56,556 nucleotides of DNA from a virus. A program made the translations under genes and the position numbers. The stretch spans positions 1 through 56,556 of the IMG/VR virus record IMGVR_UViG_3300042894_006439. One strand, 5' to 3'. Shown here one piece after another: positions 9,635 to 38,852 of this stretch (position 1 is the first letter of the stretch; each line of letters opens with the position of its first letter). The notes beneath the pieces were generated by a model that had not been told where the DNA came from, searched no databases, and worked only from the letters and a program-made list of their open reading frames with translations.

Positions 9635-11524
9635 TTACTTACTTGTTTCATCAGAAACGTCCTCATAACTTACATCTTGAACATCGTCTGAACTTTCGTT
9701 AGTTGGTTCAGGCTCGTTTTGAGATTGTTCGTACAATTTAGCACTGATTGCATGCCAAGAATCACTTAGTTTTTTAGAACTTTCGTCGATTGCATCAACA
9801 TCTTGATCAGCGTAAGCTTTTTTCAATTCATCTAGGTCTATACCTAAAGCTCTCTTGTCTTCCTCTGTTAGTTTTTCATCAAACTCTTTCATTTGTTTTT
9901 CTGTTTGGAAGATTAAGTTGTCAGCACCGTTAAGTTTGTCAACTTTTTCTCTTTCAATTCTATCAGATTCTGCATTAGCTTCAGCTTCTGCCTTCATATT
10001 CTCAATTTCTTCTTTTGTTAATTGAGAACCACCTTCAATTCGGATTTTGTTTTCTTTACCAGTAGCTTTATCTTTCGCGGTTACTGAAAGTATGCCGTTG
10101 GCATCGATATCCAAAATTACTTCCACTTGTGGAATCCCTCTTGGTGCAGGTGGAATACCATCTAAATGGAATCTACCTAAAGAACGATTGTCTCTTGCCA
10201 TAGGTCTTTCACCTTGAAGACAGTGGATCTCTACAGAAGATTGATTATCTGCTGCAGTAGAGAATGTTTCACTTTTTCTTGTAGGAATAGTAGTATTAGC
10301 TTCAATTAATTTAGTAAACACACCACCCATTGTTTCAATACCAAGTGAAAGAGGGGTTACATCTAATAGTAATACGTCAGTAATACCACCAGTCAACACG
10401 GCACCTTGAATAGCAGCTCCTAATGCAACAACTTCATCTGGGTTTACAGATTTGTTTGCTTTCTTACCAATGAATGATTCGATTGCTTCTTGAATAGCTG
10501 GGATTCTTGTAGAACCACCAACCAAGATAACTTCATCAATGTCAGCTGGTTTTAATTTAGCACTTTTAAGAGCAGACTTTGCACAATCAATAGCTCTTTT
10601 AACTAATGAACTAGTCATTTGGTCAAATTTAGCTTTAGTCAATTGTTTTACAAAGTGTAAAGGTTGATTGTCTCTTGATGTGATGTAAGGTAGATTAATG
10701 TCAGTTGTTGTAGAAGAAGATAATTCAATCTTAGCTTTCTCAGCAGCTTCTTTTAATCTTTGTAATGCCATAGCATCTTTTGATAAATCCACATCATTTT
10801 CAGATTTGAATTCTTGAACCATCCAAGTAATGATTTCGTTATCAAAGTCGTCACCACCTAAGTGAGTATCACCGTCAGTAGATTTTACTTCAAAAACACC
10901 GTCTCCAATTTCTAATACAGATACGTCATGAGTTCCCCCACCACAGTCAAATACTAAAATTTTAGACTCGTCATTTTTCTTATCTAAACCATACGCTAAA
11001 GCAGCGGCAGTTGGTTCATTGATAATTCTTTCAACTTTCAAACCAGCGATTTCACCAGCTTCGATTGTTGCGGTTCTTTCTGCATCACCGAAGTAAGCAG
11101 GAACAGTGATAACTGCTCTTGTGATTTCACATCCTAAATAATCTTCAGCAGTTTTTTTCATTTTTTGTAAAATCATTGCTGAGATTTCTTGTGGAGTATA
11201 TACTCTGTCTCCAATTCTAACACCAGGTACATTAGAGCCAGTTTTTTCTACTTTATAAGGAGTTCTTTTAATTTCATCTGAACAAGATGAGAAATCTTTC
11301 CCTATAAATCTTTTGATTGAGTAAACAGTTTGTTCTGGGTTAGTAACTGCTTGTCTTTTTGCAGGGTCTCCCACTTTTCTATCATCTTTCATGAAGCCTA
11401 CAATAGAAGGTGTTGTTCTTTTACCTTCTGAATTGGAGATTACAATTGGTTCTCCTCCCTCTACTACTGCAACACATGAGTTGGTAGTTCCTAAGTCAAT
11501 TCCAATAATTACGTCTTTTGCCAT
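9635..11524 (-). CDS. dnaK: Hsp70 chaperone DnaK
   Basis: 629 residues, full length for DnaK. The ATPase domain comes first: [18 protein letters not shown] (residues 7-24), then [30 protein letters not shown] and a phosphate loop reading [12 protein letters not shown], where most DnaKs have VFDLGGGTFDVS. The substrate domain follows, with the linker [19 protein letters not shown], then a lid and an acidic tail ([16 protein letters not shown]). Catalytic residues look intact. The Leu to Cys and Phe to His changes in the phosphate loop are unusual. Bacterial-type DnaK is rare in phages; here grpE and dnaJ lie 4-6 kb away on the other strand, so the phage supplies the whole Hsp70 cycle, probably for folding or assembly of its proteins. 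Confidence 0.97.
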
Positions 11525-13076: not shown

Positions 13077-13523
13077 ATGAAACATTTAAAAAAATTTAAT
13101 GAATCTGCTACAGAAGGACTTGATAAAGAATTTCTTGATATGGTTTTTGTAAACTTCCTTGATAGAGGAATTGAAACTAAGATTAGTCCAAATAATATGG
13201 TTTATACAATTGAGATAAAATACGAAATGGTTAGTAGTATAGGTAGGTTAAAAACATATTTAGACCAAGCTAAAGAAGATGCATTAGATATAGAGTCTGG
13301 TATGGCAAAAGTTAAGATAGAGATACCTAAGGCTTGTTATACATTATATCTAAAAGATCAAACTATTCTATTTAAGATCTATAAAGACTTAACTATACAA
13401 TCTTCTCCTAATCCAGAAGGTATTCAAGAAGTAGAAGGTTGGGATCCTGATAATGATGATTTTTTTGATGATGATGAAGCAGGTGAAGAGGATCGTCATG
13501 CTACATGGTTAAGAAATAGATAA
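13077..13523 (+). CDS. Leader-bearing late protein, paralogue of the gene at 19184
   Basis: 148 residues, beginning MKHLKKFNESATEGL, with the shared leader and a predicted cut after FNE. The body begins EFLDMVFVNFLDRGIE, which aligns with YIEMCFVDFIDKGCE in the protein at 19184, so the two are paralogues that keep both leader and N-terminal fold. A strand-rich middle is followed by an acidic tail (PDNDDFFDDDEAGEEDRH). The function is unknown. It is transcribed with the HNH protein and ended by a strong terminator shared with the convergent RNA ligase gene. Confidence 0.75.
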   Translation: MKHLKKFNESATEGLDKEFLDMVFVNFLDRGIETKISPNNMVYTIEIKYEMVSSIGRLKTYLDQAKEDALDIESGMAKVKIEIPKACYTLYLKDQTILFKIYKDLTIQSSPNPEGIQEVEGWDPDNDDFFDDDEAGEEDRHATWLRNR

Positions 13524-13524
13524 A

Positions 13525-13552
13525 TAAAAAACCCACCAATCGGTGGGTTTTA
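13525..13552. terminator. Bidirectional terminator
   Basis: ACCCACC-AATC-GGTGGGT (13531-13548) with A's on the left and T's on the right. It serves the plus gene ending at 13523 and the minus gene ending at 13550. Confidence 0.85.
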
Positions 13553-14809
13553 GTCTTCTACATCTTCTTCAACGTCAATGAAGAATAAAGTTGGGTCAAT
13601 TTTAGATAACCACTCTCTTGCTATTAACAATTTGTTAGTATCTCTTGACAACCAAACTTTAGCCATTTCAAATGGTTCAGAAGTTTTGATCATATTTTCA
13701 TATCTTTCATAGTCTTCAAAGATTTCTAAGATTTCTTCTCTTGATAGTAATGCCATTTCATCTACAGTCGCCATTTTCATTACATAATGAAAGTTCTCTT
13801 CTTTACTTTTAAAGTTGATTGAATAATCTTTTCTTGAACCTACAGTTAAGTAGAACTCATATGATTTTCTTATTTCATCAACTTTTTTAGATAAAGCTCT
13901 TTTAACTATTGAAATGATTTTCTCAATTCTAGCGTGTGCTTCTACTTCATCTTCTGGGATTTGAGCGATAACATCATCAATTTCATCAGTTAAGATGTAG
14001 TTGATTATAACGTTTTCTCTGTAAATATCCTCAGTCAATATACCGTGTCTTTTGAAGTACCAGTCAGTTTTGATTTTCATCAATAAACCGTTAGTAAATT
14101 CAATTATCCACCCTTCTTTATCTTCTGTGTAAGAAGCCATTTCAACTAACTCGTCTAAAGTATAACCTGCTTCAGAAGGAGTTACTCTAACGTCTCCGAT
14201 TACGTCTAAATAGTCATTTAAGTCTAATAGTTCACCAGTAACATTATCTCTCAATCTCAATAAGATTAAGTCTTCTTTAGCATATCTTAAAACTATTTTG
14301 TTTGTCGGAGCGACATACTCAAAGATTGCAGTTATATCAAGATCAAAAGTCCAATCAACAAATCTTTTTACGGACTCGTTTGATTTGTAAACTCTCATGA
14401 TACCTTCTGCTTGGTCAGTGATAACTGACATTTTTGATTTACCAAAAACTGATCCGTCTGGAAGTTTGATAAATGATGCCACAGAACCATCTTCTTTGTT
14501 GTAGATAGATTTGATTTTTAAGTCTTTAACTTCTGAATACATAGTATCTGGTACTTGGTTCAAGTTAAAGAATTTCTCTAATAATAAGTATCTTTTAAAC
14601 AAAGAACCGTCAGAGTTGAACACATAAGTGATCCCTCTCATTTCTTTTGCACCTGGGTCATTGAAATCCGCCCAAGAAGCTAGTCTATAGTTGAAAGTAG
14701 ATACAGCATACCCACCTACAATAGATTTTGATTCGTAAAATGGAGAGTCCACTTTATTAACCAAAGCTAATGCTTCATCGTAAGTTGGTATGTTGTATAT
14801 TTTTTTCAT
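13550..14809 (-). CDS. rnlA: T4 Rnl1-type RNA ligase
   Basis: 419 residues, a little longer than T4 RnlA (374). RNA ligase 1 seals 5'-phosphate to 3'-OH RNA ends, using ATP and a lysyl-AMP intermediate. The nucleotidyl-lysine motif is SIYNKEDGSVAS with K105 as the adenylated lysine. Other family motifs seen are AKEMRGITYVF (about 54-64), LDITAIFEYVAPTNKIVL (about 155-172) and EGWIIEFTNGLLMKIKTDWY (about 230-249, motifs IV-V). The C-terminal helical domain resembles the tRNA-binding region of Rnl1. With the kinase-domain protein at 52300 it could rebuild nicked tRNAs, as in the T4 PrrC response. The preceding 63-residue gene lies 6 bases upstream in the same unit. Confidence 0.9.
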   Translation of the reverse strand: MKKIYNIPTYDEALALVNKVDSPFYESKSIVGGYAVSTFNYRLASWADFNDPGAKEMRGITYVFNSDGSLFKRYLLLEKFFNLNQVPDTMYSEVKDLKIKSIYNKEDGSVASFIKLPDGSVFGKSKMSVITDQAEGIMRVYKSNESVKRFVDWTFDLDITAIFEYVAPTNKIVLRYAKEDLILLRLRDNVTGELLDLNDYLDVIGDVRVTPSEAGYTLDELVEMASYTEDKEGWIIEFTNGLLMKIKTDWYFKRHGILTEDIYRENVIINYILTDEIDDVIAQIPEDEVEAHARIEKIISIVKRALSKKVDEIRKSYEFYLTVGSRKDYSINFKSKEENFHYVMKMATVDEMALLSREEILEIFEDYERYENMIKTSEPFEMAKVWLSRDTNKLLIAREWLSKIDPTLFFIDVEEDVED

Positions 14810-15589: not shown

Positions 15590-16042
15590 ATGGAAAACGA
15601 AGAACAAAAAGAAATTTTAGAGGAAACTGTTGTTGAAGTAACAGTAGAGCAAAAACTACAAGAGTCTGAGGACAAATACTTACGTCTTTATGCAGATTTT
15701 GAAAACTACAAAAGAAGAGTTCAGAAGGATAAAGAAGAATTAGTATTAAATACAAAAACTAAAATGTTATCATCTGTTATTGATATGGATAATGACGTTA
15801 CATTAGCTTTGAAATCAATGGATAAAGTTGATAAAGGAGTTTTACTAATTGCACAAAAATTAGAAACTTTCTTAAAGTCACAAGGTATTGAACCAATTCA
15901 AACTGAAACTTATGATGATGAGTTACATGAAGTTATTAGTGTAACTGAATCAGGTGCCAAAAAAGTAATAGACGTAGTATCTAAAGGTTATACATTGAAT
16001 GGTAAACCTTTCAGATATCCAAAAGTTGTTTTAGGAAAATAG
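15590..16042 (+). CDS. grpE: GrpE nucleotide exchange factor
   Basis: 150 residues, short for GrpE (about 180-200) because the disordered N-terminus is reduced. The long helix includes DKYLRLYADFENYKRRVQKD (about 28-47), the GrpE dimerisation signature. The C-terminal beta-wing is present with YDDELHEVISVTESG (about 105-119), VISKGYTLNGK-like sequence and FRYPKVVLGK at the end, as in bacterial GrpE (R-P-A-x-V-x-V). It should release ADP from the phage DnaK. The stop TAG shares its G with the GTG start of the next gene. Confidence 0.93.
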   Translation: MENEEQKEILEETVVEVTVEQKLQESEDKYLRLYADFENYKRRVQKDKEELVLNTKTKMLSSVIDMDNDVTLALKSMDKVDKGVLLIAQKLETFLKSQGIEPIQTETYDDELHEVISVTESGAKKVIDVVSKGYTLNGKPFRYPKVVLGK

Positions 16043-16873: not shown

Positions 16874-17941
16874 ATGGCAAAAGATTATTATAGCGTACTA
16901 GGTGTTGATAAAACAGCATCAGAAGATGAGATTAAGAAGTCTTATCGCAAAATGGCAATGAAGTGGCATCCTGATCGAAATCCGGATAACCCAGAAGCAG
17001 AAGTAAAGTTTAAAGAAGCGGCAGAAGCTTATGATGTACTTTCAGATCAAGGTAAAAAATCTAATTATGATAGATTCGGATCTGCAGATGGTGGTGGTAA
17101 TCCATTTGGTGGTAATCCATTCGGTGGTGGGAGAGGTCACGGTTTTAACATGGATGATATTTTCAGTCAATTTGGAGATATATTCGGTGGCGGTCAAAGA
17201 CATCATCAACAACAACAAAGACAAGCAAAAGGCTCTGATTTGAGAATCAAAGTTTCTTTAACTATTGAAGAAATAATCAATGGTGTCACAAAGAAATTAA
17301 AATATAAAAGACATGAACCTTGTAATCCTTGTAGTGGGAAAGGTGGTTCCGATTTAAGAAGTTGTATTCCTTGTAATGGTTCTGGACAAAGAACTGTAGT
17401 ACAAAATACACCATTTGGACAAATTAGAAATGTATCTATGTGTCCTGATTGTAATGGAAGTGGATCTCAAATAGCAAATAAATGTAATGTTTGTCACGGA
17501 CAGGGAACAACTGTAAGAGAACAAGCGGTTGATGTTGAAATACCTAAAGGTGTTGGAAATGGAATGCAAATGAGTATGGCTGGATTTGGTAATCATACAA
17601 TCAATGGAGTTCCTGGTGATTTATATATTGTCTTTGATGAAATTAGAGAACCGTATTTTAGAAGAGAAGGTGGTAATATTATAGTTGATTCAGAGATTTC
17701 AGTTATTGATGCAATAATTGGTGCCAATATATCGGTTAAATCACCACACGGTGATATAATGGTTGCTATTGAACCAGGTACAGAACACGGTAAAATTATA
17801 AGAATAAATGGTAAAGGAATTCCAGATGCTCATGAAGGTATGGGTAGTTTAGTAATAAATATTAAAATTAGAATACCAAAGTCAATAAACCTTGAACAAA
17901 AGGCAATGTTGGAAAAACTAAAAAATGCTGGTAATTTTTAA
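16874..17941 (+). CDS. dnaJ: Type I J-domain co-chaperone DnaJ
   Basis: 355 residues with the complete type I architecture. The J domain (1-70) contains [12 protein letters not shown] with the HPD motif that stimulates DnaK. A Gly/Phe-rich region (72-115: [19 protein letters not shown]) follows, then a four-repeat zinc region with [24 protein letters not shown] and CNVCHGQG (about 150-215). Two C-terminal beta-sandwich domains bind substrate. A glutamine/histidine run (HHQQQQRQ) lies after the G/F region. All eight zinc cysteines are present, so it should hold unfolded clients and pass them to the phage DnaK. The next gene starts within its stop (TAATG). Confidence 0.96.
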
Positions 17942-19183: not shown

Positions 19184-19567
19184 ATGAAACATTTAAAAAG
19201 AATTTTTGAAAGTACAGAAGAATTAGACACCGATTATATCGAGATGTGTTTTGTTGATTTTATTGACAAAGGATGTGAAATTGAGGTTAATACTGATGAA
19301 GGTGGAAAGTATATTTCTTTAATGCCTAATTTACCTGGTGTTTCTTATTCAAATGGTGAGTGGGTTAGAAAAACTAAAAGAAAGACTCTTGATGATGTTT
19401 TAAAATCAAGCAAGGAACTTTATGATTTCTATGATGAGATAAATACTTGTATAAAAAAAGTAAAGATAAAATATCCAGATATAGAAGTTGAATTTAATAT
19501 AGAGAAAGAAGGATATGAGAACAATGATCCATTTGATGCTTATATACAATTAGATTTTTTGTTATAA
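19184..19567 (+). CDS. Leader-bearing late protein, paralogue of the gene at 13077
   Basis: 127 residues, beginning MKHLKRIFESTEELDTDYIE. The leader ends F-E-S, with predicted cleavage after the glutamate. The following YIEMCFVDFIDKGCEIEV aligns with FLDMVFVNFLDRGIETKI of the protein at 13077. The rest is a strand-helix domain with DVLKSSKELYDFYDEINTCI and an acidic end. The function is unknown. It is co-transcribed with the putative neck protein, which supports a virion-associated role. Confidence 0.75.
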   Translation: MKHLKRIFESTEELDTDYIEMCFVDFIDKGCEIEVNTDEGGKYISLMPNLPGVSYSNGEWVRKTKRKTLDDVLKSSKELYDFYDEINTCIKKVKIKYPDIEVEFNIEKEGYENNDPFDAYIQLDFLL

Positions 19568-22201: not shown

Positions 22202-22212
22202 TTTAATATATA
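22202..22212 (+). promoter_or_regulatory. Late-type promoter box TTTAATATATA
   Basis: Exact copy of the recurrent box, 5 bases before the ATG at 22218 and 10 bases after the nrdB terminator. It opens the run of leader-bearing genes 22218-24464. Confidence 0.55.
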
Positions 22213-22217: not shown

Positions 22218-22553
22218 ATGAAAATATTAAAATTTAATGAGTTTGAAGAAGTAAACGAAGCACTTCCTAGACAACAATCAGTAGATCAGCTAAAAAAAGT
22301 TATGAAAATGTCTGCAAGTACTGACATTGGTAACAGAATTTCTGATATGAATAAACAAGGTGCTAATATAGATTATATTAAAAATCCTATTGATAAAGGT
22401 ATTGAATCATACGAAGATTATGAAAAACATAATAAGAAATTTGTTTCTTCTTGGAATTTAAAAGGTTTAATCGGTCCTTTTGCACCAGAACCTAAACCAA
22501 AAGTTGATTTTGATTTAGATTATGAAAAGAAACAAGGTAAAGTAAAAAAATAA
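22218..22553 (+). CDS. Leader-bearing late protein
   Basis: 111 residues from the ATG at 22218 (MKILKFNEFEEVNEALPRQQ). The upstream ATG at 22194 lies before the promoter box and is rejected. The leader has two candidate cut sites, after FNE and after VNE (VNE-A). The body is helical and basic (SVDQLKKVMKMSASTDIGNR), with a Lys-rich tail (KPKVDFDLDYEKKQGKVKK) that could bind DNA. The function is unknown. Its stop overlaps the next start (TAATG), so it is coupled to the 2H phosphoesterase gene. Confidence 0.75.
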   Translation: MKILKFNEFEEVNEALPRQQSVDQLKKVMKMSASTDIGNRISDMNKQGANIDYIKNPIDKGIESYEDYEKHNKKFVSSWNLKGLIGPFAPEPKPKVDFDLDYEKKQGKVKK

Positions 22554-23164
22554 TGAAAATTAAAAAGTATATACAATTCGTTAAAGAATCAACCGGTTAT
22601 GATTATGGTTGTGTTATGGTTGAAGTTCCGGTATCAAATTGGAATGAGATTTGTTCGGTTATTGATAAGGATGATATTTATGAAGAAGAAAATGATACAT
22701 CTTATGGTATTCAAGAAAATCCACATTTAACTTTATTATATGGATTAAAATCTGATGTAAGTAAAGAAAAGGTAGAAGATATATTAGAAAATATTATGGA
22801 TGAGTGGCGTAATTTTGGTATGGAAGATTTTGATTATAATGATGTTTCTGATAGAATTGCAATAGAAGATGCTAGTGATAAAGGGATTGAGATTGAAATA
22901 GAAAATATAGGAGTATTTGAAAATGAAAAATTTGATGTTGTTAAGTTTAATATTAAAAAAACTGAACTACTACAAAAACTATTTGATGGTCTTTCAGAAT
23001 TACCAAATGAAAATACATTTCCTGATTATAAACCACATATGACAATTGCTTTTGTGAAAAAAGGATTAGGTGAAAAATATAAGAAAAAATATAGTCATAA
23101 AGTATCATCTAATGAAATTTGTTACTCAATGGCAAATGGTGAAAAAGTATACTTTGAGATATAG
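22553..23164 (+). CDS. 2H phosphoesterase-like protein with virion-type leader
   Basis: 203 residues. It begins with the shared leader MKIKKYIQFVKESTGYDYG (predicted cut FVKE-S). The two HxT motifs of the 2H phosphoesterase fold follow: NPHLTLLYGL (H58, T60) and YKPHMTIAFV (H162, T164), about 104 residues apart. 2H enzymes cut cyclic or 2'-5' phosphodiester bonds. They include LigT, AKAP7-type 2'-5' phosphodiesterases and the phage anti-CBASS protein Acb1 that destroys cyclic nucleotide alarms. Which substrate applies here is not known. The leader would place the enzyme inside the capsid and so in the cell at injection, before any phage gene is expressed. Confidence 0.8.
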   Translation: MKIKKYIQFVKESTGYDYGCVMVEVPVSNWNEICSVIDKDDIYEEENDTSYGIQENPHLTLLYGLKSDVSKEKVEDILENIMDEWRNFGMEDFDYNDVSDRIAIEDASDKGIEIEIENIGVFENEKFDVVKFNIKKTELLQKLFDGLSELPNENTFPDYKPHMTIAFVKKGLGEKYKKKYSHKVSSNEICYSMANGEKVYFEI

Positions 23165-23166: not shown

Positions 23167-23952
23167 ATGAAGATACTAAAGTTTGAACAGATAAACGAAA
23201 ATAAAATGTGGTATAAAACAATACCAGAAATGTTAAACTTTCTTAAAAGTAAGTCTAACCTACCTTGGTTGTGGTTGGACACCGAAACTACCGGCTTATT
23301 AGGTCCTAAAAAAGAGCAACTAACACAAGTATCTGCACTGGCAACTAAATATAATTTTAGTTCTAATACATTTGATGAGATTAGTTCTTTTGATGATAAA
23401 ATCAAACTAACTTCTGAATTAAAGACAAGGTATAATCAACCAGATGGTGGTAATAGAAGAATTCTAAGTTTTAATCATTATGGATCAGGTGGTTATAAAT
23501 ATAAAGAGGAAAGACAAATCGTTGATGAGTTCTTTCATTGGGTCTCAAAATTTTCACCTTGTTTATTGATAGCACAGAATGCCGGATTTGATATGCAAAT
23601 GTTATCTGGTAGATTTGGTCATAAAATAACAAATGAAGTCTTAGATACTAAAATGTTGATTCAATTATATTTCTTACCACTTATTCAAAAGTTAGCAGAA
23701 ACTGATTTAACTTATCAAAAAATGGTAGATGGTATTGGAACTTCTACGAGAGATAATGGTTTAATCTCATCTTCAATGAGTAAAGTTGGACCAGCACTTG
23801 GAATCAATATGTCTGGTTATCATGATGCATTAACGGATTGTCGTATTACGATAGAAATGTATAAAAGAATAGTTGATTTATTAAATCAGTATAATAATAT
23901 AGATATATCAAAGTATCAAACCGAAAGGATAAAAAGTATTAGAACAAAGTAA
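23167..23952 (+). CDS. DEDDh 3'-5' exonuclease with virion-type leader
   Basis: 261 residues. The leader MKILKFEQINENKMWYK (cut predicted at INE-N) is followed by a DnaQ/RNase T-like domain. Exo I is WLWLDTETTGLLG (D38, E40), Exo II is LIAQNAGFDMQML (about 135-147) and Exo III is YHDALTDCRITIEMYKR (about 218-234). The His four residues before the last Asp marks the DEDDh subtype. All four acidic residues and the His are present, so it should be an active exonuclease on DNA or RNA. No polymerase domain is attached. It lies 2 bases after the 2H gene and overlaps the next start, so three leader proteins are made together. Confidence 0.85.
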   Translation: MKILKFEQINENKMWYKTIPEMLNFLKSKSNLPWLWLDTETTGLLGPKKEQLTQVSALATKYNFSSNTFDEISSFDDKIKLTSELKTRYNQPDGGNRRILSFNHYGSGGYKYKEERQIVDEFFHWVSKFSPCLLIAQNAGFDMQMLSGRFGHKITNEVLDTKMLIQLYFLPLIQKLAETDLTYQKMVDGIGTSTRDNGLISSSMSKVGPALGINMSGYHDALTDCRITIEMYKRIVDLLNQYNNIDISKYQTERIKSIRTK

Positions 23953-24464
23953 TGAAATTAAGAAAGTATAACGAAGCATTTGAAGAAGGTCATTTATATG
24001 ATAAAGAAGGTAATGATGTTGGTAAATTTCAAAAGGCATGGCATGAGGAAGTAGAAAGAAAACTTAAACAGCATATGTTATATTTGAAAACTATCTTTCC
24101 TGAGGTTTTAGAAGATACTAAAGATTTATTAGATGATTACTTTGTAGAAGCACTTGATCGTGATGCAAAAACATCTATATCTAAAGTAAATAAAGCAGAT
24201 CATGTTGGATTCTATGGTAGATATAGAATTGTGGGTAACTATGCTAAATCAGATAAAACTTTATCTGGTTATGCAGCAACTTTTAATGGACTTAGTAATG
24301 ACTTTCTTGATATAGAAACTGGTCTTAAACACTTACAAGCAAAATTCAAAGATGAAAGTATCTTTGGTGAAGAATTTCCAATTACTACACTTACACACAC
24401 TTTAAATGTTACTCATAATGATAGAGGTATCAGTTATGAGTTCATATTAGATATGAAGTTTTAA
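23952..24464 (+). CDS. Leader-bearing late protein
   Basis: 170 residues, beginning MKLRKYNEAFEEGHLYDKEG, with candidate cuts at YNE-A and FEE-G. The body has a long helix (AWHEEVERKLKQHMLYLKTI), a second helix (LEDTKDLLDDYFVEALDRDA), then a beta region (GFYGRYRIVGNYAKSDKTLS; YEFILDMKF at the end). No catalytic motif is recognised. The start overlaps the exonuclease stop (TAATG). The shared GFYGR/PFYGR turn and overall size hint at a distant relation to the protein at 24534, but this is weak. Confidence 0.7.
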   Translation: MKLRKYNEAFEEGHLYDKEGNDVGKFQKAWHEEVERKLKQHMLYLKTIFPEVLEDTKDLLDDYFVEALDRDAKTSISKVNKADHVGFYGRYRIVGNYAKSDKTLSGYAATFNGLSNDFLDIETGLKHLQAKFKDESIFGEEFPITTLTHTLNVTHNDRGISYEFILDMKF

Positions 24465-24500: not shown

Positions 24501-24512
24501 CTTAATATATAA
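24501..24512 (+). promoter_or_regulatory. Late-type promoter box CTTAATATATAA
   Basis: Recurrent box with one change (C for T), 21 bases before the ATG at 24534. Confidence 0.45.
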
Positions 24513-24533: not shown

Positions 24534-24914
24534 ATGAAATACATTAAAAAGTTTAACGAAGGTTTTGAACCTATAGTAGCACAACGTAAATTGTCAGATA
24601 ATTTTAAAAAAACTGCAGATTCAGTACTTGATATGATTGAAAGTGATGAAAGCCTACATTATCTTAAAGATATGGCAAAAGAAGTAAAAGCAGACGGAAG
24701 TGAGGGTTGGAGTACAGCAGAGAGAGATTTTATTAAAGAATTAAAATCATGTTTCCCTGAAATCGATTTTGGTATGCAAGAACACCTAAAAACTGGTTTT
24801 GATATTCCTTTCTATGGTAGAACTGGTTCAATTGGTATTGGTGGTAATCCATCAGAAACGGTTACATTATCTTCATATATTATTGGAAAACTTGGTGGGT
24901 GGCAATTCGAATAA
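24534..24914 (+). CDS. Leader-bearing late protein
   Basis: 126 residues, beginning MKYIKKFNEGFEPIVAQRKL, with a predicted cut at FNE-G. The body has helices (NFKKTADSVLDMIESDESLH; TAERDFIKELKSCFPEIDFG) and a glycine-rich beta end (PFYGRTGSIGIGGNPSETVT). The function is unknown. It has its own late-type promoter and a strong terminator, so it is a single-gene unit and may be made in large amounts. Confidence 0.75.
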   Translation: MKYIKKFNEGFEPIVAQRKLSDNFKKTADSVLDMIESDESLHYLKDMAKEVKADGSEGWSTAERDFIKELKSCFPEIDFGMQEHLKTGFDIPFYGRTGSIGIGGNPSETVTLSSYIIGKLGGWQFE

Positions 24915-30975: not shown

Positions 30976-31105
30976 AAAGATTTTCAATCTTAATTTTTCT
31001 TCTATTTCTCTTACTAAATAGTTCTTTCATGATGTCTGCATCAATTGACTTTGTCAGCTCATCTGCTAACATTTGTGTTATTTTATCTACTACATCGATA
31101 CTCAT
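30968..31105 (-). CDS. 45-residue conserved-motif peptide
   Basis: A short frame with ATG at the complement of 31103-31105 and TAA at 30968-30970, encoding MSIDVVDKITQMLADELTKS followed by IDADIMKELFSKRNRRKIKI and a short end. The motif (amphipathic helix, then K-S-I-D-x-D-I-M-K-x-L) is a recognisable type of short phage peptide. Its 5' part is duplicated at 32077-32145, which argues that it is or was a real coding sequence. It overlaps the tail-tube gene end by 8 bases on the other strand. Confidence 0.6.
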   Translation of the reverse strand: MSIDVVDKITQMLADELTKSIDADIMKELFSKRNRRKIKIENLFK

Positions 31106-31110
31106 ATTGA
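31046..31110. repeat. Direct repeat copy 1 (about 65 bases)
   Basis: This stretch and 32088-32152 agree at about 80% of positions in the same orientation; both contain the core ATTTTATCTACTA. They bracket a cassette of two genes. Copy 1 is the 5' part of the intact 45-residue gene. Confidence 0.75.
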
Positions 31111-31713
31111 ATATTTTGATTTATATAAAATCTCATCATTACTTTTAACTTCATTAAAAATAGGTAGATCGGATGTAACACTCATTGTAGTATCAAAGTA
31201 AACCCCTTTTATAATAGATTTATTTTTAAACTTTCTAAATAGATAGTCGTCACCACACCAAATTTTTAATTCTTCTGGTATTTGTACATAATATTTTTTA
31301 TTAAAAATAATCATACAACCAAATCCCCAATTTCTATTATCAGTCTCTTCTAATCTAAAGTTAGTATCACTTGGATCTTTATAAGATTGTTCTGCAACTC
31401 CTATTATTGTTTCATCTGCAACACTTAGTTGATTAAAAAAGTTCACATCAAATACTATATCATCATTTAATAAAGCAACTATTTCAAAATTAGATTTTGA
31501 TACTCCTAAATTCCAGGAAGGGTTTACGTAGATATTTTGATCCATCTTTACATAAATTACTTTATTATATTGATTAGTATCTATATTTTTAGATTCATAA
31601 TCATTGTCAATAATTAAAATCTCCCCAATTACATCACATTTATTTAAGTTATTTAATAATATTTCTAACTTATTTGATTTCCACATTGTTGGTATTACTA
31701 TACTTATTTTCAT
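31102..31713 (-). CDS. GT2-type glycosyltransferase
   Basis: 203 residues. It starts MKISIVIPTMWKSNKLEILL, a GT-A fold N-terminus, with EILIIDNDYES (about 31-41), NPSWNLGVSKSNFEIVALLN (about 64-83) and DD at about 84-85 as the metal-binding pair. It is short compared with typical GT2 enzymes (about 250-300) and may lack the acceptor half. It overlaps the upstream gene by 4 bases. It sits at the distal end of the island between two direct repeats, so it may have been acquired as a cassette. Donor and acceptor are unknown. Confidence 0.8.
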   Translation of the reverse strand: MKISIVIPTMWKSNKLEILLNNLNKCDVIGEILIIDNDYESKNIDTNQYNKVIYVKMDQNIYVNPSWNLGVSKSNFEIVALLNDDIVFDVNFFNQLSVADETIIGVAEQSYKDPSDTNFRLEETDNRNWGFGCMIIFNKKYYVQIPEELKIWCGDDYLFRKFKNKSIIKGVYFDTTMSVTSDLPIFNEVKSNDEILYKSKYSI

Positions 31714-32042
31714 TTTACTTTCTTATTATTTAGTTTAGAATCTATATATTCTTTTATCCATTCATTATTAAAATATTTATCTATTAAATAATTTTGATTT
31801 TTTAAACAGTTTTCATATAAATTCTGATCATTTTTTAAAATAATGATCTTTTCTATAAATTCCTCAGCAGATTTAAAAATGGTTTCCTTACTAAAGTAGT
31901 CATTATTTTCAAATGGAAATACTAAGTCTGTATATTCCATCATCATTAGTGAGTTTTTTGATAGACCCTCAAAAAATCTTTTACATAAGTGTCCAGTACC
32001 ATTTAGGTTTAGAAAGAATTTATATTTTAAAAATGTATTCAT
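31710..32042 (-). pseudogene. Truncated glycosyltransferase (C-terminal part only)
   Basis: The open frame from ATG 32042 gives 110 residues: FLNLNGTGHLCKRFFEGLSK, TDLVFPFENNDYFSKETIFK and a final helix. This resembles the C-terminal donor-binding half of a GT-B or GT10-like enzyme. Upstream the same frame continues without an ATG (reading SSHIDVYNNIPPDIF) and then meets a copy of the N-terminus of the 45-residue phage peptide in another frame. The N-terminal half is therefore missing, and the gene looks like a recombination remnant. It may still be translated, with its end coupled to the GT2 gene. Confidence 0.65.
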
Positions 32043-32076
32043 GAATATATCTGGTGGTATATTATTATAAACATCT

Positions 32077-32145
32077 ATATGACTACTGATTTTGTTAGTT
32101 CGTCAGCCAACATTTGTGTCATTTTATCTACTATATCTATATTCA
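32077..32145 (-). pseudogene. Duplicated 5' fragment of the 45-residue gene
   Basis: On the minus strand this reads MNIDIVDKMTQMLADELTKS, then VVI and a stop (the stop codon is formed at the junction). It matches the first 20 residues of the gene at 30968-31105 with a few changes. The copy ends exactly where the truncated glycosyltransferase sequence begins, marking a recombination junction. Confidence 0.7.
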
Positions 32146-32152
32146 TATTTAC
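32088..32152. repeat. Direct repeat copy 2 (about 65 bases)
   Basis: Second copy of the repeat at 31046-31110, about 80% identical by eye. Divergence between copies implies the event is not recent. Confidence 0.75.
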
Positions 32153-32589
32153 ACATATTTTTCTACATAATCAGAACATATTGCATATGCTTTGTCAATG
32201 TCTTTAAATTCTTTAGTTTCTGGCATTACTGCAACTGAATTACTACTTAGTTCTTTACCTGGATATGTCCAAAAATAACCCATTGAAGTAATAGTGAAAT
32301 CATCTTCTTGATGCCAAAAGTAATTTACATCATATCCACAATTCTTTAATAGAACCAGTGATTCTAAATTTTTACAATGTATCCACAATTTTTCTATTCT
32401 ATCACGTAACCATCTAAAGTCAACTCCGTATTGAGGTTTATCGTGTCCAAGATATATTATATTATCAATAAACCAAATATCAATCTCTACATCAAATCCT
32501 TTTTTAATTGCCATATCAATATAATTTGGTTCATTTTCATATGACTCAAATTTTCCGTTAATGTTTCCTCTATGTGATATTAGTTTCAT
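32149..32589 (-). CDS. Short GDPD-like phosphodiesterase-fold protein
   Basis: 146 residues. It starts MKLISHRGN, the start of glycerophosphodiester phosphodiesterases (the His-Arg pair). NEPNYIDMAIKKGFDVEIDI (about 19-38) supplies the expected E-x-D metal pair and IIYLGHDKPQYG the second catalytic His. GDPDs are normally about 240-300 residues, so this is a half-length TIM-barrel form. Here it sits 2 bases after the RuBisCO-like gene, in a nucleotidyltransferase/cupin/methyltransferase group, so it may hydrolyse or transfer a phospho-linked sugar substituent. Activity is uncertain because of the short length. Confidence 0.7.
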   Translation of the reverse strand: MKLISHRGNINGKFESYENEPNYIDMAIKKGFDVEIDIWFIDNIIYLGHDKPQYGVDFRWLRDRIEKLWIHCKNLESLVLLKNCGYDVNYFWHQEDDFTITSMGYFWTYPGKELSSNSVAVMPETKEFKDIDKAYAICSDYVEKYV

Positions 32590-32591
32590 TA

Positions 32592-33770
32592 TTATTTCTT
32601 ACCCCATTTTTCTATTGCTACCTGGTATTCACCGGATAGATTACCGTCAATTGATTGTCTCATTGCCTTTGTACCAGCTAGTGTACCATTTGGATGACCG
32701 TGTATGGCACCACCTACGTTAGCCATATAATCAATTCCAACTTTAGAATTAATCCAATCAGTTAGTCCAGGATGGAATCCACAACTAAGTGCAGGCATTA
32801 CATTATACTTATGTAATGTTTCAATAGAGTTTATTACTTCACTTTCATCCCATTTATAATACCCACCAATCATTCCGACATGTATAAAGTCAACTCCCAT
32901 CATTCCTGCTAATTTAGAGATAACGTTCCAGTCAATGTGAAAGTCATGGTTTTTATTAGTCAATATTTTATCACCACTTTTTTGAAAATGTATAAATATT
33001 GGTAAGTCTAATTCTCTTACTGCCTTATAGACTCCTAGTCCACACCAAAAGTTAATATGAACTGCATTACCACCTAATTCATAAACTTTTTTTACTCTAT
33101 CAATTATATATGGATAGTCTGAATGTATAGAAACTGCATAAATAACATTTTTGTCTTTTAAGTATTCCATAATTAGTGGTACTCTTTCTTCGATAGTACA
33201 GAAAGATGGGTTACTTAAAATCTCATCTTCTTTAATAAAGTTGACACCCCCTTCTACCAGTTCTTTAACCATCTCCAAAAGAGTTTGTGGTGAGATACCA
33301 GTCTTTGGCTTAACAATAGCACCAAGTATTGGTTTATCAAAACACTTTGTATATTCTCTTATTCCTTTGATTCCGAATTTTGGACCTAAAAATAATTTTT
33401 CAATTGATTCTGGAAATATAATATTTAAAACTTGACATTTTATAATATTATCAATATCTAATTGACCACCCATTATATTTACTAATAAATGTGAAATACC
33501 ATCTGTTTTGAAGTCTATATTTATAGTTGGAAAAGCAATATCAACAGTTCCTAATTTTTTAGTTTTTAATAATTCTTCATCTTCTAATATTATACAGGAA
33601 TGATTATCAAACAACTCCTCTGATTCCCATTGATTTCTGACATTTGGATTACCAACACTTTGACCTATTGCAAGATTCCAAGAAGCATCTCTAAGTGTTG
33701 TAGTAGACTCTAAGAAGTAGGTTACTATAAAGTAGTCTTCTTTATTTATTTTTTTTCTAAAAATATTCAT
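32592..33770 (-). CDS. RuBisCO-like protein (form IV-like large subunit homologue)
   Basis: 392 residues, somewhat shorter than RuBisCO (about 450-475). Clear family motifs: GAIVKPKTGIS (150-160; K154 and K156 correspond to K175 and K177 of spinach), GGVNFIKEDE (174-183; K180 is the lysine carbamylated in RuBisCO, and D182 and E183 are the metal ligands), FIHF (about 249-252), DFIHVGMIGG and GGAIHGHPNGTLAG. Loop 6 reads GGYYKWDE rather than VGKLEG, and the Asn equivalent to N123 appears replaced by Gly. These changes argue against CO2 fixation and for a RuBisCO-like enolase, isomerase or decarboxylase. It sits within a sugar-nucleotide cluster, so a sugar-phosphate substrate is likely. Very unusual in a phage. 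Confidence 0.88.
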   Translation of the reverse strand: MNIFRKKINKEDYFIVTYFLESTTTLRDASWNLAIGQSVGNPNVRNQWESEELFDNHSCIILEDEELLKTKKLGTVDIAFPTINIDFKTDGISHLLVNIMGGQLDIDNIIKCQVLNIIFPESIEKLFLGPKFGIKGIREYTKCFDKPILGAIVKPKTGISPQTLLEMVKELVEGGVNFIKEDEILSNPSFCTIEERVPLIMEYLKDKNVIYAVSIHSDYPYIIDRVKKVYELGGNAVHINFWCGLGVYKAVRELDLPIFIHFQKSGDKILTNKNHDFHIDWNVISKLAGMMGVDFIHVGMIGGYYKWDESEVINSIETLHKYNVMPALSCGFHPGLTDWINSKVGIDYMANVGGAIHGHPNGTLAGTKAMRQSIDGNLSGEYQVAIEKWGKK

Positions 33771-33774
33771 AATT

Positions 33775-34482
33775 TTAATTTGTTTTTTTTATGTAAGCAG
33801 ATGGACAAATATAATTTAGATTTTTTATTTCTAAGTTCATCTCATTTAAAAATTTATCTACACCTTTAGATTCTGACCATTTTGAGTGTGCATACTCATC
33901 GAGTACAATTATACCACCTCTGGAGAGTCTATCCCAAAAGTTTTTAAGAGTATTATAAGTTGGTACTTCTAGATCTAAGTCAATATATAAAAGTGATATT
34001 TTAAATCCTGGATTATCTTCTATGTATTTTTTACTTGTTAGAGAAATATCACCTTTAACTAGTTCAAAGTCTTCATCTTTAAATCCATCTAGTTTAAGTT
34101 TACTATATAATTCAGATTTAAAATCTTTTTCATGTTCAAAGTTTCTTCCATTAAATAAAAGTGACATTGTTTTTTTATCCAAATTATCTAAATTTGATAA
34201 TAGATCTTTAGTGTCAAAAAAGTCAAAACCAACTACTCTTTTTAGTGAGTTTGGGTTCATTATTTTTTTTAATTTCAAGAAGGTATAGAAACCAGATCCT
34301 TTGAACACACCACACTCTACAATATCACCTGGGATATCTTTTACTTCATCATATAATAGTGTTCTTGCGACTAATTTATTAAAGACCTTTCTATCATTAC
34401 TCATAATAAATCCATTAAAGTTATCAAATAAACTTTGATTAGTATTTTCTATTTCTATTTCTTCAATATTCATGTTAGACAT
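33775..34482 (-). CDS. TylF-like SAM-dependent methyltransferase
   Basis: 235 residues from the ATG at 34482 (MSNMNIEEIEIENTNQSLFD); an upstream ATG at 34563 would overlap the cupin gene by 89 bases and is less likely. Motifs: GDIVECGVFKGSGFYTFL (SAM-binding motif I), VVGFDFFDT, LLYIDLDLEVPTYNTLKNFW (metal-binding D-x-D as in TylF/macrocin O-methyltransferase) and GGIIVLDEYAHSKW. TylF-type enzymes methylate sugar hydroxyls and need a divalent metal. It lies 4 bases before the RuBisCO-like gene and overlaps the cupin gene by 8 bases. It probably O-methylates a phage-made glycan. Confidence 0.85.
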   Translation of the reverse strand: MSNMNIEEIEIENTNQSLFDNFNGFIMSNDRKVFNKLVARTLLYDEVKDIPGDIVECGVFKGSGFYTFLKLKKIMNPNSLKRVVGFDFFDTKDLLSNLDNLDKKTMSLLFNGRNFEHEKDFKSELYSKLKLDGFKDEDFELVKGDISLTSKKYIEDNPGFKISLLYIDLDLEVPTYNTLKNFWDRLSRGGIIVLDEYAHSKWSESKGVDKFLNEMNLEIKNLNYICPSAYIKKTN

Positions 34483-34795
34483 TATATTTATCTTCCGGTA
34501 AGGATGGTGTTTTGATGACCAATATTTTACAATCTGTAATAAATATCGGTGTTGCAGTTTCATTTGGATCTATAATAAATATATCACCTTTTTGTATTTC
34601 TTTATCATTCATAATCATCTCACCTTCTACTAATAAATTAATTTCTGTTGCAATTTTATGAATATGAGGTGCCCAAAATTCACCTTTTTTATGTGTTAAA
34701 AGACCGACTTCAAAGCTTTTAGTTTTATAACAGGCTGGTTCAAAGTTACCAATAAACCAACCTCTGTAATATTCTTCTAATTTAGTTATTTTCAT
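34475..34795 (-). CDS. Single-domain cupin
   Basis: 106 residues. The cupin pattern is present: GEFWAPHIHKIATEINLLVE (about 38-57; H-x-H...E motif 1) and GDIFIIDPNETATPIFI (motif 2, with the usual His changed to Glu or Thr). The fold fits small sugar-epimerase or isomerase cupins and metal-binding sensors. With one ligand of motif 2 missing, catalysis is uncertain. It overlaps the nucleotidyltransferase gene by 14 bases and the methyltransferase gene by 8, so the three are made together. Confidence 0.8.
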   Translation of the reverse strand: MKITKLEEYYRGWFIGNFEPACYKTKSFEVGLLTHKKGEFWAPHIHKIATEINLLVEGEMIMNDKEIQKGDIFIIDPNETATPIFITDCKILVIKTPSLPEDKYNV

Positions 34796-35474
34796 TTTTT
34801 AAATATTTTTTTAAATCTTCTGGAGTACCAATTGGGAAATGTTGGTTAAACATGTAGATTCCAATTTTATACTTATTTTTAATCAAATAGTTGTAACTCG
34901 GTGCAACATAAAGTTCGTTATTAGTTCTATCGTTATTTAATTTCATCTCATCATATGATTCAAAGAAGTATTTAGCCTTTTTCCAATAGTGTAATCCGTT
35001 TGTGGCAATATTTGAAATAACAACTTTTTCTTTCACATCAGTAACTAAATTGTTGTCATCAACTTTAACATATGAGTTTTTATTAGAATTTGAGATAAAA
35101 CATCCCAGAACACCGTCATATCTTCTGGCAAATGATAGAAATAAATCTTTATTCCAATCTTTTATTATTTGGTCACAATTAGTTATAATTAACTCTTGCT
35201 CAAGATCAATTAAATCTTTTGCTAAATATGCGGTAGTTGCCGGACCATCAGTAACATAATTAATATCTATTATATTAACTTCATCATTTTCAAAACTGAT
35301 AGTATGCTCTTCTCGTTTAATTATGAAAAAATTGACATCTGATGCAAAAAAATTATCTACAACATGTTGTATCATATTTTTATTATTCCAAGATATAAGA
35401 GGTTTCGGTTCAATAAAATCTGAGTTTATAAATCTGGACCCTCGACCCGCCATCGGTACTAAAATTTGCAGCAT
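34782..35474 (-). CDS. Sugar-phosphate nucleotidyltransferase
   Basis: 230 residues. The N-terminal signature is ILVPMAGRGSRFINSDFIEP (4-23), with the G-x-G-x-R NTP-binding loop, then KPLISWNNKNMIQHVVDNFF (24-43), LIITNCDQII (about 94-103; the D of metal binding) and NGLHYWKKAKYFFES. This is the short form of the NTP_transferase family that activates sugar phosphates as NDP-sugars. The particular sugar is unknown. The gene is preceded at its very start codon by a run of ten ATT-type trinucleotides (35475-35503), a possible slippage switch. Confidence 0.88.
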   Translation of the reverse strand: MLQILVPMAGRGSRFINSDFIEPKPLISWNNKNMIQHVVDNFFASDVNFFIIKREEHTISFENDEVNIIDINYVTDGPATTAYLAKDLIDLEQELIITNCDQIIKDWNKDLFLSFARRYDGVLGCFISNSNKNSYVKVDDNNLVTDVKEKVVISNIATNGLHYWKKAKYFFESYDEMKLNNDRTNNELYVAPSYNYLIKNKYKIGIYMFNQHFPIGTPEDLKKYLKNENN

Positions 35475-35503
35475 ATTATTATTATTATTATTATTATTAT
35501 TAT
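35475..35503. repeat. Trinucleotide microsatellite (ATT)n directly at a start codon
   Basis: About nine and a half ATT repeats, read as AAT/TAA on the coding strand, placed immediately before the ATG of the nucleotidyltransferase gene. Length change would alter ribosome access or spacing rather than frame. Confidence 0.9.
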
Positions 35504-36255
35504 CGTTTAATATTTAGACAGGTATCGATAGATACCTGTGTACTATCTCTTCCTAATTCGTCTATATCTCTTTTATCCCACTTTCTATACTCTCTTATAA
35601 TATAATATTCTTTTATATTGACATTTTCAATCAAGTTAAAATCTATTGAACTTCTTTTAATAATTTCAGTGAAGACTTTCTCAGGACTATCTAGATATGA
35701 AAGTTCATTAATATTTTCAATTGAAATGTTTTTAAAAGTCTTTAAAAATGTATCCTTACTAGATATGAAGAAATGGTCATTTAGTTCATTTGTACTTCCT
35801 TTGTTTTTCCAAAACAATTTCGGTAATGATAAACTTTTAAAGTTAAAATTTTCAATGATAATTTTTAAATCACTTCTACAAAAAACATAATACTCATAAT
35901 CTTGAAATAGATCTGAAATTAGATTAATTTTCTTATAAAAGTGAAAATAACCATATACATTAGACAAGTGTGAGACTTTAGATATATCTAATCCATTTAG
36001 AACGTTTATTTGTGATAAAAGACTATTCTTTGTTGGTTGTTTATCTATTAAATAATAGTCAAAGTTATTATTTATACTGTCTATATCTAAATCATAACTT
36101 TTATAATCCTGATCTAACTGATTGTTATTAAACCATGTTGATAAAAGTGTGTGACATTCATGTTCTTTGAAGTTTTGTAGTAATGTATTTTTTACTTCTA
36201 AAACGGATTCCAAATTTGGTCTAACAAGACCGTGTATAATTAAAAGTATTTTCAT
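35500..36255 (-). CDS. Glycan-island protein, possible glycosyltransferase
   Basis: 251 residues. It begins MKILLIIHGLVRPNLESVLE, then LLSTWFNNNQ, SNVYGYFHFYKKINLISDLF and QDYEYYVFCRSDLKI (about 119-133; a possible R-x-D or DxD-like acidic site). A short hydrophobic-acidic C-terminus follows. It is similar in style to capsule or O-antigen polymer enzymes that act on glycan chains, but no catalytic motif is certain. It sits 3 bases before the next gene and follows another GT-like gene. Role inferred from context. Confidence 0.65.
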   Translation of the reverse strand: MKILLIIHGLVRPNLESVLEVKNTLLQNFKEHECHTLLSTWFNNNQLDQDYKSYDLDIDSINNNFDYYLIDKQPTKNSLLSQINVLNGLDISKVSHLSNVYGYFHFYKKINLISDLFQDYEYYVFCRSDLKIIIENFNFKSLSLPKLFWKNKGSTNELNDHFFISSKDTFLKTFKNISIENINELSYLDSPEKVFTEIIKRSSIDFNLIENVNIKEYYIIREYRKWDKRDIDELGRDSTQVSIDTCLNIKR

Positions 36256-36258
36256 GTT

Positions 36259-37044
36259 TTAATACCAAGCATTTCCATTTAAGTGTTCTACAACTGATTC
36301 TTGATCCCATTGACCATATACAAAGCAACCAAATTTTTCGGAAGCCATATCAAATCCCATTGTATCAATATAAAACTTATAGAATTCATTTAGTGGTCCT
36401 TCTACAAATCCACCCTCATTTGAAGTAGGATAAACAAATGTTGACCACCAGTTTTGAAAAACTTTAGTTTTACATATATATGGATTATTTGACCATCTAA
36501 AAGTAGGTATTAAAGGAATTTTATCAGACGGATTTTTACCATTTTGTATAAGGTTATCATATCTAATATTATTATTATCAAATTGATTTAATCTAATATA
36601 GTTTACCTTATCACTTGATAAAACTTCATCTATGAGTGGATTTAAGTCAATTTCTTTTCTCAATACCCAGTCATGTTCCCAAAAAATATAAGATTCAGTT
36701 TTAACCGAATTAATTAAATTTATGAAGTTTTTTGGTGCGGTAATAATTGGATCAGTTGAATCAGATGAGCTAACTAGTAATTCATAGTTTTTAAATTTAC
36801 TTTTTAGTTCAAGTAGATTTTGATGATATTGTTCATCAACAGGTCGACCATTTCTTTTATCATATCCAATATGTATAAATACATTATCTGGATTTATATA
36901 TGATTTTTTGAAAAAGTCATTAATAACATTTTCAATTAGTCTAGTTGATGGTGCGGAAGGAACTATATTTTGCACACCTCTATAAATTCCTTGACTTTCT
37001 GTTTTTGTACAATGTGTTGTTATACATAGTGTTATTTTATTCAT
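36259..37044 (-). CDS. GT-A-like glycosyltransferase
   Basis: 261 residues. It begins MNKITLCITTHCTKTESQGI, with RLIENVINDFFKKSYINPDN (alpha/beta Rossmann part), YIFWEHDWVLRKEIDLNPLI (about 118-137; acidic E-H-D likely at the metal site) and SNNPYICKTKVFQNWW at the acceptor side. Size and layout fit GT-A enzymes acting on surface glycans. The family number is uncertain. It lies 3 bases from the next downstream gene. Confidence 0.7.
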   Translation of the reverse strand: MNKITLCITTHCTKTESQGIYRGVQNIVPSAPSTRLIENVINDFFKKSYINPDNVFIHIGYDKRNGRPVDEQYHQNLLELKSKFKNYELLVSSSDSTDPIITAPKNFINLINSVKTESYIFWEHDWVLRKEIDLNPLIDEVLSSDKVNYIRLNQFDNNNIRYDNLIQNGKNPSDKIPLIPTFRWSNNPYICKTKVFQNWWSTFVYPTSNEGGFVEGPLNEFYKFYIDTMGFDMASEKFGCFVYGQWDQESVVEHLNGNAWY

Positions 37045-37058
37045 TTCTATTTTTATTT

Positions 37059-38000: not shown

Positions 38001-38006
38001 TTTATT

Positions 38007-38852
38007 TTAATTTTTTTTTATAAAATCTTCTATTTTTACTTTTAAAGACTTTTTATAGTTATCCCACCACTTTGAGCATAAATAACTTAGTTGTTCTTTA
38101 TTAGAATCTTTCATTTTTTCAAAAGAATCATTCCAATTTTTACCAATTATAAAAGGATGATCACCATATATTTTAGTAAAGTAATCACTACCGTCATTAT
38201 CTAGTACAGATACCGGAATTGATCCACTTTCAAGAGCTTCATTTATTCTAAAACTATCTAAACTTATCCAACCTCTTGGACAAAGAGTAAAGTAGCTTCT
38301 GCTTAGAATATTAGAAAAATCTTTCACTCCTAATCCATTTGGATCTGCCCACCTTTGAGTTAGTAATACATATTTTTTATCTACACTATTAAAGGTATTT
38401 AACATCTCATATCTATCTGATTTTAATTGACCAACGAAGTTAATATCTAAGTCTTTATCTAGGTCTACTTTTTTAATACCACTTTGATATCCTAAAGGTA
38501 TTGTCAATATATTATACTTTTCTATATATTCTTTATTGTAGTAATTCCTAATTATTTTTTTAGAAGTATTATAGAAGTCTATATTTTGTTCAAATGCTTC
38601 ATCAGAAAGATGTAAGATACTATAATTAAGATTTAGTGAGTTATACCCATTGATATAATCAATAAGTCTTGTATTAGGTTCCTTACCAACAGAGACAATT
38701 AGAATAGAATTATCAACAAATAGATCAAATTTATTTTCAATATCATAATGATTTTTAATCAAGAAATTTGAAAAAATATTTTTAATCCAATCAAATGAAA
38801 AAGCTACTTCATAATCAGTTTTAACCAACCATATTAGATTTATTTCTCTCAT
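38007..38852 (-). CDS. Exostosin-like (GT47-type) glycosyltransferase
   Basis: 281 residues. The C-terminal half carries the exostosin pattern: FTLCPRGWISLDSFRINEAL (about 194-213) followed by ESGSIPVSVLDNDGSDYFTK (about 214-233). The same motif occurs in the second half of the protein at 41169, so the two are related. Exostosins add glucuronic acid or other sugars to polysaccharides. It shares one base with the gene upstream (38852). Donor unknown. Confidence 0.8.
   Translation of the reverse strand: MREINLIWLVKTDYEVAFSFDWIKNIFSNFLIKNHYDIENKFDLFVDNSILIVSVGKEPNTRLIDYINGYNSLNLNYSILHLSDEAFEQNIDFYNTSKKIIRNYYNKEYIEKYNILTIPLGYQSGIKKVDLDKDLDINFVGQLKSDRYEMLNTFNSVDKKYVLLTQRWADPNGLGVKDFSNILSRSYFTLCPRGWISLDSFRINEALESGSIPVSVLDNDGSDYFTKIYGDHPFIIGKNWNDSFEKMKDSNKEQLSYLCSKWWDNYKKSLKVKIEDFIKKN

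Follow-up and report, generated by a model that had tools for sequence, protein, structure and literature searches.

The open reading frame at positions 23167-23952 (+ strand) of the analysed window, a stand-alone virus record of 56,556 bp, encodes an intact DEDDh (DnaQ-like, RNase_T) exonuclease, for which 3'-5' activity is predicted. Our preferred reading, to which we assign a probability of roughly 60%, is that this enzyme is made late, packaged in the capsid and injected, and that it works with a 2H phosphoesterase on RNA ends or oligonucleotide signals. The 261-aa product, read from an ATG start, matched Pfam RNase_T (PF00929) with E=2.2e-6 and 28.8 bits (curated cut-off 24), and PHROG 192, 'DNA polymerase exonuclease subunit', with E=2.5e-10. 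The original observation that a full set of Exo I-III residues lies downstream of the leader was confirmed by sequence and alignment. Exo I (motif DTETTG, 23278-23286) contributes D38 (23278-23280) and E40 (23284-23286), Exo II contributes D142 in QNAGFDM (23590-23592), and Exo III (motif HDALTD, 23821-23838) contributes H219 (23821-23823) and D224 (23836-23838). All of them are conserved in the orthologues (13 aligned copies), H219 and D224 being 'nearly invariant' only because one of the 13 copies is truncated. Moreover, the AlphaFold2 model (pLDDT 80.7, pTM 0.80) adopts a DEDDh fold, with RNase T found by Foldseek at 4e-8, and with VIA Z scores of 14.2 to ExoI (174 aligned, 3.2 A) and, in a near-tie, 13.9 to Pol III epsilon, followed by about 13 to TREX1/2 and RNase T. 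While fold and catalytic residues are common to RNase T, Pol III epsilon, ExoI, TREX and the phage enzyme, identity to them is about 20% or less, and only the phage enzyme has the private conserved stretch FNHYGSGxYKY and a leader or 2H fusion. The dN/dS values of 0.08-0.14 against four close orthologues indicate purifying selection.

We then considered whether the protein could be the proofreading subunit of the phage polymerase, made early in infection, as the PHROG label and the nearby gp32 and RNR genes might suggest. This appears extremely unlikely, since in the 476-kb relative G001 the family-B polymerase ORF carries its own DNA_pol_B_exo1 domain; the comparison with proofreading subunits that had originally been proposed was thus decided against such a role, and the candidate was rejected. 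The leader and the late-type promoter also argue against it, and the fusion partner of the exonuclease is a 2H enzyme, not a polymerase. RNase_T genes numbered at most one per genome searched (two fragments in G005 represent one gene), and a search for the polymerase with phrog_17 matched solely the exonuclease itself. As a separate observation, the G001 polymerase ORF (G001:84859-86385) stops after 508 aa, inside the polymerase domain, and resembles the shorter PolB family phrog_2062 (502 positions); it is probably split.

T4 DexA, a DEDDh exonuclease that scavenges host DNA (PMC12153337), offers a precedent for another early role, and our protein has a fold compatible with DNA exonucleases, ExoI and TREX among them. 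Nevertheless, we regard a DexA-type scavenger of host DNA, acting early, as very unlikely. Both proteins are DEDDh-type exonucleases of T4-like phages, but DexA belongs to PF16473 and the present enzyme to PF00929, and the BLASTP similarity between them (E=0.12) is not significant, for which reasons orthology was rejected. DexA also has no leader, for which there would be no space ahead of an Exo I motif that lies at residues 6-8, and the exonuclease operon bears a late-type promoter.

The exonuclease is the third of four + strand genes (22218-22553, 22553-23164, 23167-23952 and 23952-24464) that overlap by 1 base or are separated by a 2 bp gap, which confirms that it belongs to an operon. The group stands behind the motif TAATATATA at 22204-22212 (+), which ends 5 nt 5' of the first ATG. 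The first gene encodes a 111-aa protein conserved in relatives (MKILKFNEFEEVNE/ALPRQQ...; the slash marks the putative cut), the second a 203-aa 2H phosphoesterase (MKIKKYIQFVKE/S) assigned by Pfam, HxT motifs and VIA, and the final one a 170-aa protein (MKLRKYNEAFEE/G). Leaders are present on all four products (MKILKFNEFEEVNEA, MKIKKYIQFVKES, MKILKFEQINEN and MKLRKYNEAFEEG); that of the exonuclease, MKILKFEQINE, occupies codons 23167-23199, with a predicted prohead-protease site, INE/N, after codon 11. A second copy of the late-type motif, found by motif search at 24503-24511 (+), is followed by a 126-aa leader protein (MKYIKKFNE/G; 24534-24914, +).

We read TAATATATA as a putative late promoter from its consensus, and late expression is what this reading would imply. 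The motif occurs 10 times in the window (3.4 expected) and 143 times in G001 (38.8 expected), there mostly 4-6 or 19-25 nt 5' of ATGs. It, or its variant [AT]ATATATA, lies upstream of the gp23-like capsid, protease-scaffold and portal-like genes, and among the genes inspected it was absent before gp32, RNR, PolB, thymidylate synthase and the helicase gene ('portal' and 'helicase' being labels assigned by reading the sequence). When the comparison is restricted to ORFs preceded by an intergenic stretch of over 40 bp, the motif stands before 22/33 leader ORFs versus 66/259 others in G001 (Fisher p=7e-6), and 11/13 versus 10/77 in G002 (p=5e-7). The claim of a late-type promoter is supported for the operon, headed by a motif common to capsid, protease and portal-like genes, but not for the exonuclease ORF taken alone: in the window no promoter motif stands immediately 5' of it, and it depends on the operon promoter.

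To describe the leader across genomes, a pattern of basic residues plus an aromatic residue plus [LIFVY]-x-E within the first 16 residues was used, with the same N termini shuffled as control. The pattern was designed on G001, G002 and the window, while LR745206 (634 kb) is independent of the design. Matches were found in 10/72 ORFs of the window (1.7 in shuffled controls), 87/607 in G001 (12.8), 38/232 in G002 (5.9) and 129/894 in LR745206 (23.8), and at about 1% of internal methionines. Overall, some 14% of the ORFs of these Mahaphage-type relatives bear a leader, 5-7 times the shuffled controls, and with chance subtracted this amounts to approximately 70-100 leader proteins per large genome (G001, LR745206); some matches, e.g., ClpP and SmpB, are probably due to chance. 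Further leader proteins of the window, all on the + strand, start with MKIIKYSDFINE/A (8262-8825) and MKHLKRIFE/S (19184-19567), both identified by the pattern, with MKHLKKFNE/S (13077-13523, late-type motif 4 nt 5' of the ATG), and with MKYLKSFKIFEE (47055-47543, late-type motif upstream). Once the leader was stripped, BLASTP sorted the 87 leader proteins of G001 into 85 mutually unrelated families, and the codons of the leader roughly match the codon usage of that genome. The repetition is thus not explained by paralogy or by the copying of a DNA cassette, which argues for a modular peptide. Among other phages, the leader count was weak in Tenacibaculum phage PTm1 (10/286 versus 3.7 shuffled), and with the same pattern it was not above chance in the cultured relative MA9V-1. 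In Sphingomonas phage PAU another leader, MKT[LI][ST]KL[YF]E[ASD], is repeated. As a side observation, MKT[LI][ST]KL[YF]E stands on about nine PAU proteins, including gp154, annotated as 'internal capsid protein', so that PAU is an independent and cultivable example of the leader-tagged arrangement.

The idea that the peptide is a capsid leader gains support from comparison with T4. In that phage, a ten-residue IPIII leader directs proteins to the prohead and gp21 cleaves after L/I-x-E; leader mutants assign targeting to residues 4 and 7, and processing to residues 8 and 10 (PMC9026906). The T4 genome holds two ORFs with MKTYQEFIAE (Y4, F7, I8, E10), the capsid-targeting sequence being MKTYQEFIAE/A, and the motif Y-x-x-[FYLI]-[ILV]-x-E keeps both its targeting and its processing positions. 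Many huge-phage proteins start with this motif, among them MIKKYNQFLNES, MIIKNYIQFVNES and the G001 exonuclease MKILKYSELINEN. Away from N termini the motif is rare, and its internal copies are concentrated in the protease-scaffold protein: 12 of 47 in G001, where it is one of 627 proteins and the next best has 3, and 11 of 50 in LR745206, where the next best has 2. The prohead protease (phrog_207 at 6e-28 for the LR756502 copy, and Peptidase_S77 weakly) is fused to a scaffold half with tandem repeats such as YSEYIAENLDKNI, and a leader profile trained solely on G002 and the window found its single best internal match, out of all proteins of G001, in this same protease-scaffold (LNSKKLNES).

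In the relatives, the protease gene adjoins that of a gp23-like major capsid protein; both the gp21-like protease and the gp23-like capsid protein are encoded in G001, G005 and LR756502. The adjoining capsid protein reads ...HSINE/NAYVNAS, with ...QINE/NAYV in LR756502 and ...SINE/NAYV in G005, to be compared with QINE/NKMWYK in the exonuclease. Leader, scaffold repeats and capsid propeptide thus have a single putative cleavage grammar in common. The scaffold repeat and the head genes are known from the relatives, the 56-kb window being without those head genes. Moreover, the window leader is atypical: compared with T4, the spacing in F-E-Q-I-N-E is shorter by one residue and Q replaces the aromatic residue of the second targeting position, so that it is not a full class-A motif, whereas the G001 orthologue (YSELINE) is.

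T4 IPI, IPII, IPIII and Alt likewise carry a short N-terminal peptide (basic, aromatic, I/L-x-E) on unrelated cargo, and T4 and the huge phages share a gp21-family protease and a gp23-family capsid. The differences are of scale and design: leader proteins number dozens in the huge phages versus a handful in T4 (whose MKTYQEFIAE proteins are missed by our pattern, which requires two basic residues, making T4 unusable as a count control), the scaffold of the huge phages is fused to the protease and has tandem leader-like repeats, and the putative cargo differs from that of T4, comprising the DEDDh exonuclease and, in relatives, an RNA ligase, a CCA-type nucleotidyltransferase and DeoC. Phage PTm1 likewise has a prohead core scaffolding-protease fusion beside its major capsid protein but, unlike the huge phages, few leaders of their type. 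Separately, two further G001 products (395767-397008 and 31915-34797) have internal leader-like sites (KYVSFIKES, RYFDFINEA) and could be polyproteins that the prohead protease processes.

What the sequences show directly is the DEDDh nuclease, its leader and the recurrence of such leaders across the genomes, the operon, the promoter motif, the 2H fusions and, in relatives, the protease-scaffold and capsid sites; from these we infer that the protein is expressed late, docks, is cleaved, packaged and injected, and what its substrate may be. Under the proposed mechanism, the exonuclease would be produced at a late stage of infection, along with the other leader-tagged proteins encoded in its operon, and its N-terminal peptide would act like the T4 capsid-targeting sequence and dock on the prohead scaffold. 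Docking would probably take place by mimicry of the Y-x-x-[FYLI]-[ILV]-x-E repeats of the scaffold, an idea of our own suggested by the shared motif. The gp21-like protease would then cut after INE, so that the mature enzyme, beginning at N12, would stay in the head and enter the next host along with the ejected DNA. In that host its most likely role would be to process 3' ends of nucleic acids jointly with the co-packaged or fused 2H enzyme, which may first open ends that are cyclic or blocked, or signals in the form of cyclic oligonucleotides, leaving a product for the exonuclease to degrade or trim.

The peptide could instead be another kind of N-terminal signal, serving in docking to a different phage structure, or as a translation-start or promoter cassette, and it is true that many leader ORFs begin 4-6 nt after the promoter motif. 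We consider this unlikely. In G001, 53 of the 87 leader ORFs have no TAATATATA within 60 bp, and, as most leader ORFs are in this situation and leader codons vary like those of the genome, the promoter cassette was rejected. In addition, the peptide resembles both the T4 leader and the scaffold repeats of these phages, and the capsid protein has the INE/N site as well, all of which argues for the capsid-type leader.

The orthologues fall into three architectures, with [LIV]-x-E/N immediately before [KN]MWYK in 16/16 tabulated exonuclease copies; a second viral scan, made with the exonuclease alignment, recovered the same loci. Six of the 16 have their own leader (the window, L010, L012 with its duplicate L016, L013, L015 and LR756502), and another six are fused behind a leader-bearing 2H phosphoesterase (L002, L004, L007, L008 with its duplicate L009, L011 and LR745206), with [LIV]NE/N retained at the junction. 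Because both enzymes are fused behind one leader, the fusions suggest a common site of action and a single leader sufficient for the two. The remaining four copies are leaderless and represent two lineages, L003/L014 (MLLKE/N) and L005/L006 (MINE/N). These lineages have lost the leader, and the enzyme can thus function in its absence. Packaging may be dispensable in them, or the E/N motif may be intrinsic to the exonuclease domain and not a protease site.

The leaderless forms also bear on the possibility that the late exonuclease acts inside the cell that makes it, where it would clear nucleic acids or trim DNA or RNA as the genome is packaged, that it is not functional virion cargo, and that leaders are neutrally gained and lost. 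In agreement with such a role, L005/L006 retain a late-type motif 4 nt 5' of the leaderless ATG of MINE, and the leaderless L003/L014 enzyme is under purifying selection. However, 12 of the 16 copies have a leader, either their own or through the 2H fusion, and the four leaderless copies amount to two lineages, so that we regard a role confined to the producing cell as rather unlikely and favor the packaged and injected enzyme.

The substrate of the presumably packaged enzyme was approached through its 2H partner, which matched Pfam 2_5_RNA_ligase2 at 1e-7. Its two HxT motifs (H58-x-T60 and H162-x-T164) are intact and both are invariant in 9 sequences. The model, with a pLDDT of only 63.8, gave a VIA Z of 10.7 to cyclic-nucleotide PDE and penguinpox cGAMP PDE, and of 9.3 to Acb1. 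CBASS signals are destroyed by Acb1, itself a 2H enzyme (PMC9117128), and for the 2H domains found in injected 'polyvalent' proteins of phages, RNA or nucleotide signals have been put forward as targets (PMC5512222). With Acb1, other phage 2H enzymes and the 2H domains of polyvalent proteins, the partner shares the 2H fold, the two HxT motifs and the setting of a probable injected protein (PMC5512222, PMC9117128); unlike them, it is paired or fused with a DEDDh exonuclease. Identification of the partner as Acb1 was not supported, as the Acb1 Pfam score of 22.2 bits is below the cut-off of 27 and the nearest structure is not Acb1.

Either task, on RNA or on signals, could naturally be carried out in two steps, first by a 2H enzyme and then by a 3'-5' exonuclease, and the 2H neighbor or fusion would make RNA ends or oligonucleotides a likelier target than the ends of the phage DNA. 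The 2H partner itself fits RNA ends and cyclic signals equally well. In G001, leaders are also present on an Rnl1-type RNA ligase (MKLFRYKEFLRES), a PolyA_pol/CCA-type nucleotidyltransferase (MKLKRYNQFLES) and DeoC (MKKIKNYTQFIKEN), and because these proteins are leader-tagged the balance tilts, with low confidence, towards RNA end processing. Counter to this reading, the T4 Rnl1-type RNA ligase of the window (13550-14809, - strand) has no leader. Likely orthologues of the Rnl1-type ligase with a leader were noted in G002 (MKLFRYMEFIKES) and LR745206 (MKLFKYIEFINEN), and a P-loop kinase (AAA_33) was noted in the window at 52300-52776 (- strand).

By exonuclease and capsid protein, the relatives are LR745206 (634 kb) and LR756502 (642 kb), and by capsid protein they include other genomes of the Mahaphage clade, which is predicted to infect Bacteroidetes (PMC7162821). 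In the 735-kb LR756501, a search at E<=0.01 gave no PF00929 match, so that the exonuclease gene is not universal in the clade; a scan of a collection of 84,980 species' genomes with the exonuclease family profile found no cellular relatives. The T4 internal proteins are a known kind, and what stands out here is the scale of leader tagging, the proposed mimicry between leader and scaffold, and the 2H-DEDDh pair, of which the open literature searched, with partial coverage, gave no account. The exonuclease is one of probably dozens of tagged proteins that may be packed in the head and injected. More tentatively, and with somewhat less than even confidence, we propose that Mahaphage-type phages pack approximately 70-100 proteins by means of protease-cut peptides mimicking scaffold repeats, and that this cargo includes a nucleic-acid end-processing kit, made up of the 2H enzyme and the DEDDh exonuclease, to which relatives add an Rnl1-type ligase and a CCA-type nucleotidyltransferase; the kit would enter the cell ahead of phage gene expression and counteract host tRNA-cutting or cyclic-oligonucleotide defences. 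If true, huge phages would bring a large ready-made set of enzymes, including a nuclease-phosphoesterase pair, and scaffold-repeat mimicry as the T4-type leader's route to the prohead core would become directly testable.

Several other genes of the window deserve mention. It encodes a full DnaK-GrpE-DnaJ chaperone set, at 9635-11524 (-), 15590-16042 (+) and 16874-17941 (+), with matches to HSP70 (E=2.5e-245), GrpE (1.4e-23) and DnaJ (1.8e-27), and also a ClpA/B-like AAA unfoldase at 47569-49674 (-). A long cluster of glycosyltransferase-like and sugar genes extends over 31102-47032 (-); its members, which include an exostosin-type protein (41169-42656), a GDP-mannose 4,6-dehydratase (44197-45243) and a second NAD-dependent epimerase (46055-47032), suggest phage synthesis of a GDP-fucose-type sugar. 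Right behind a late-type promoter motif, the gene at 1430-3376 (+) encodes a product of 648 aa in which a cohesin domain and, at the C terminus, a Por_Secre_tail were recognized. This tail is the sorting domain of the type IX secretion system of Bacteroidetes, and the product is, judging from its domains, apparently exported by the T9SS of the host.
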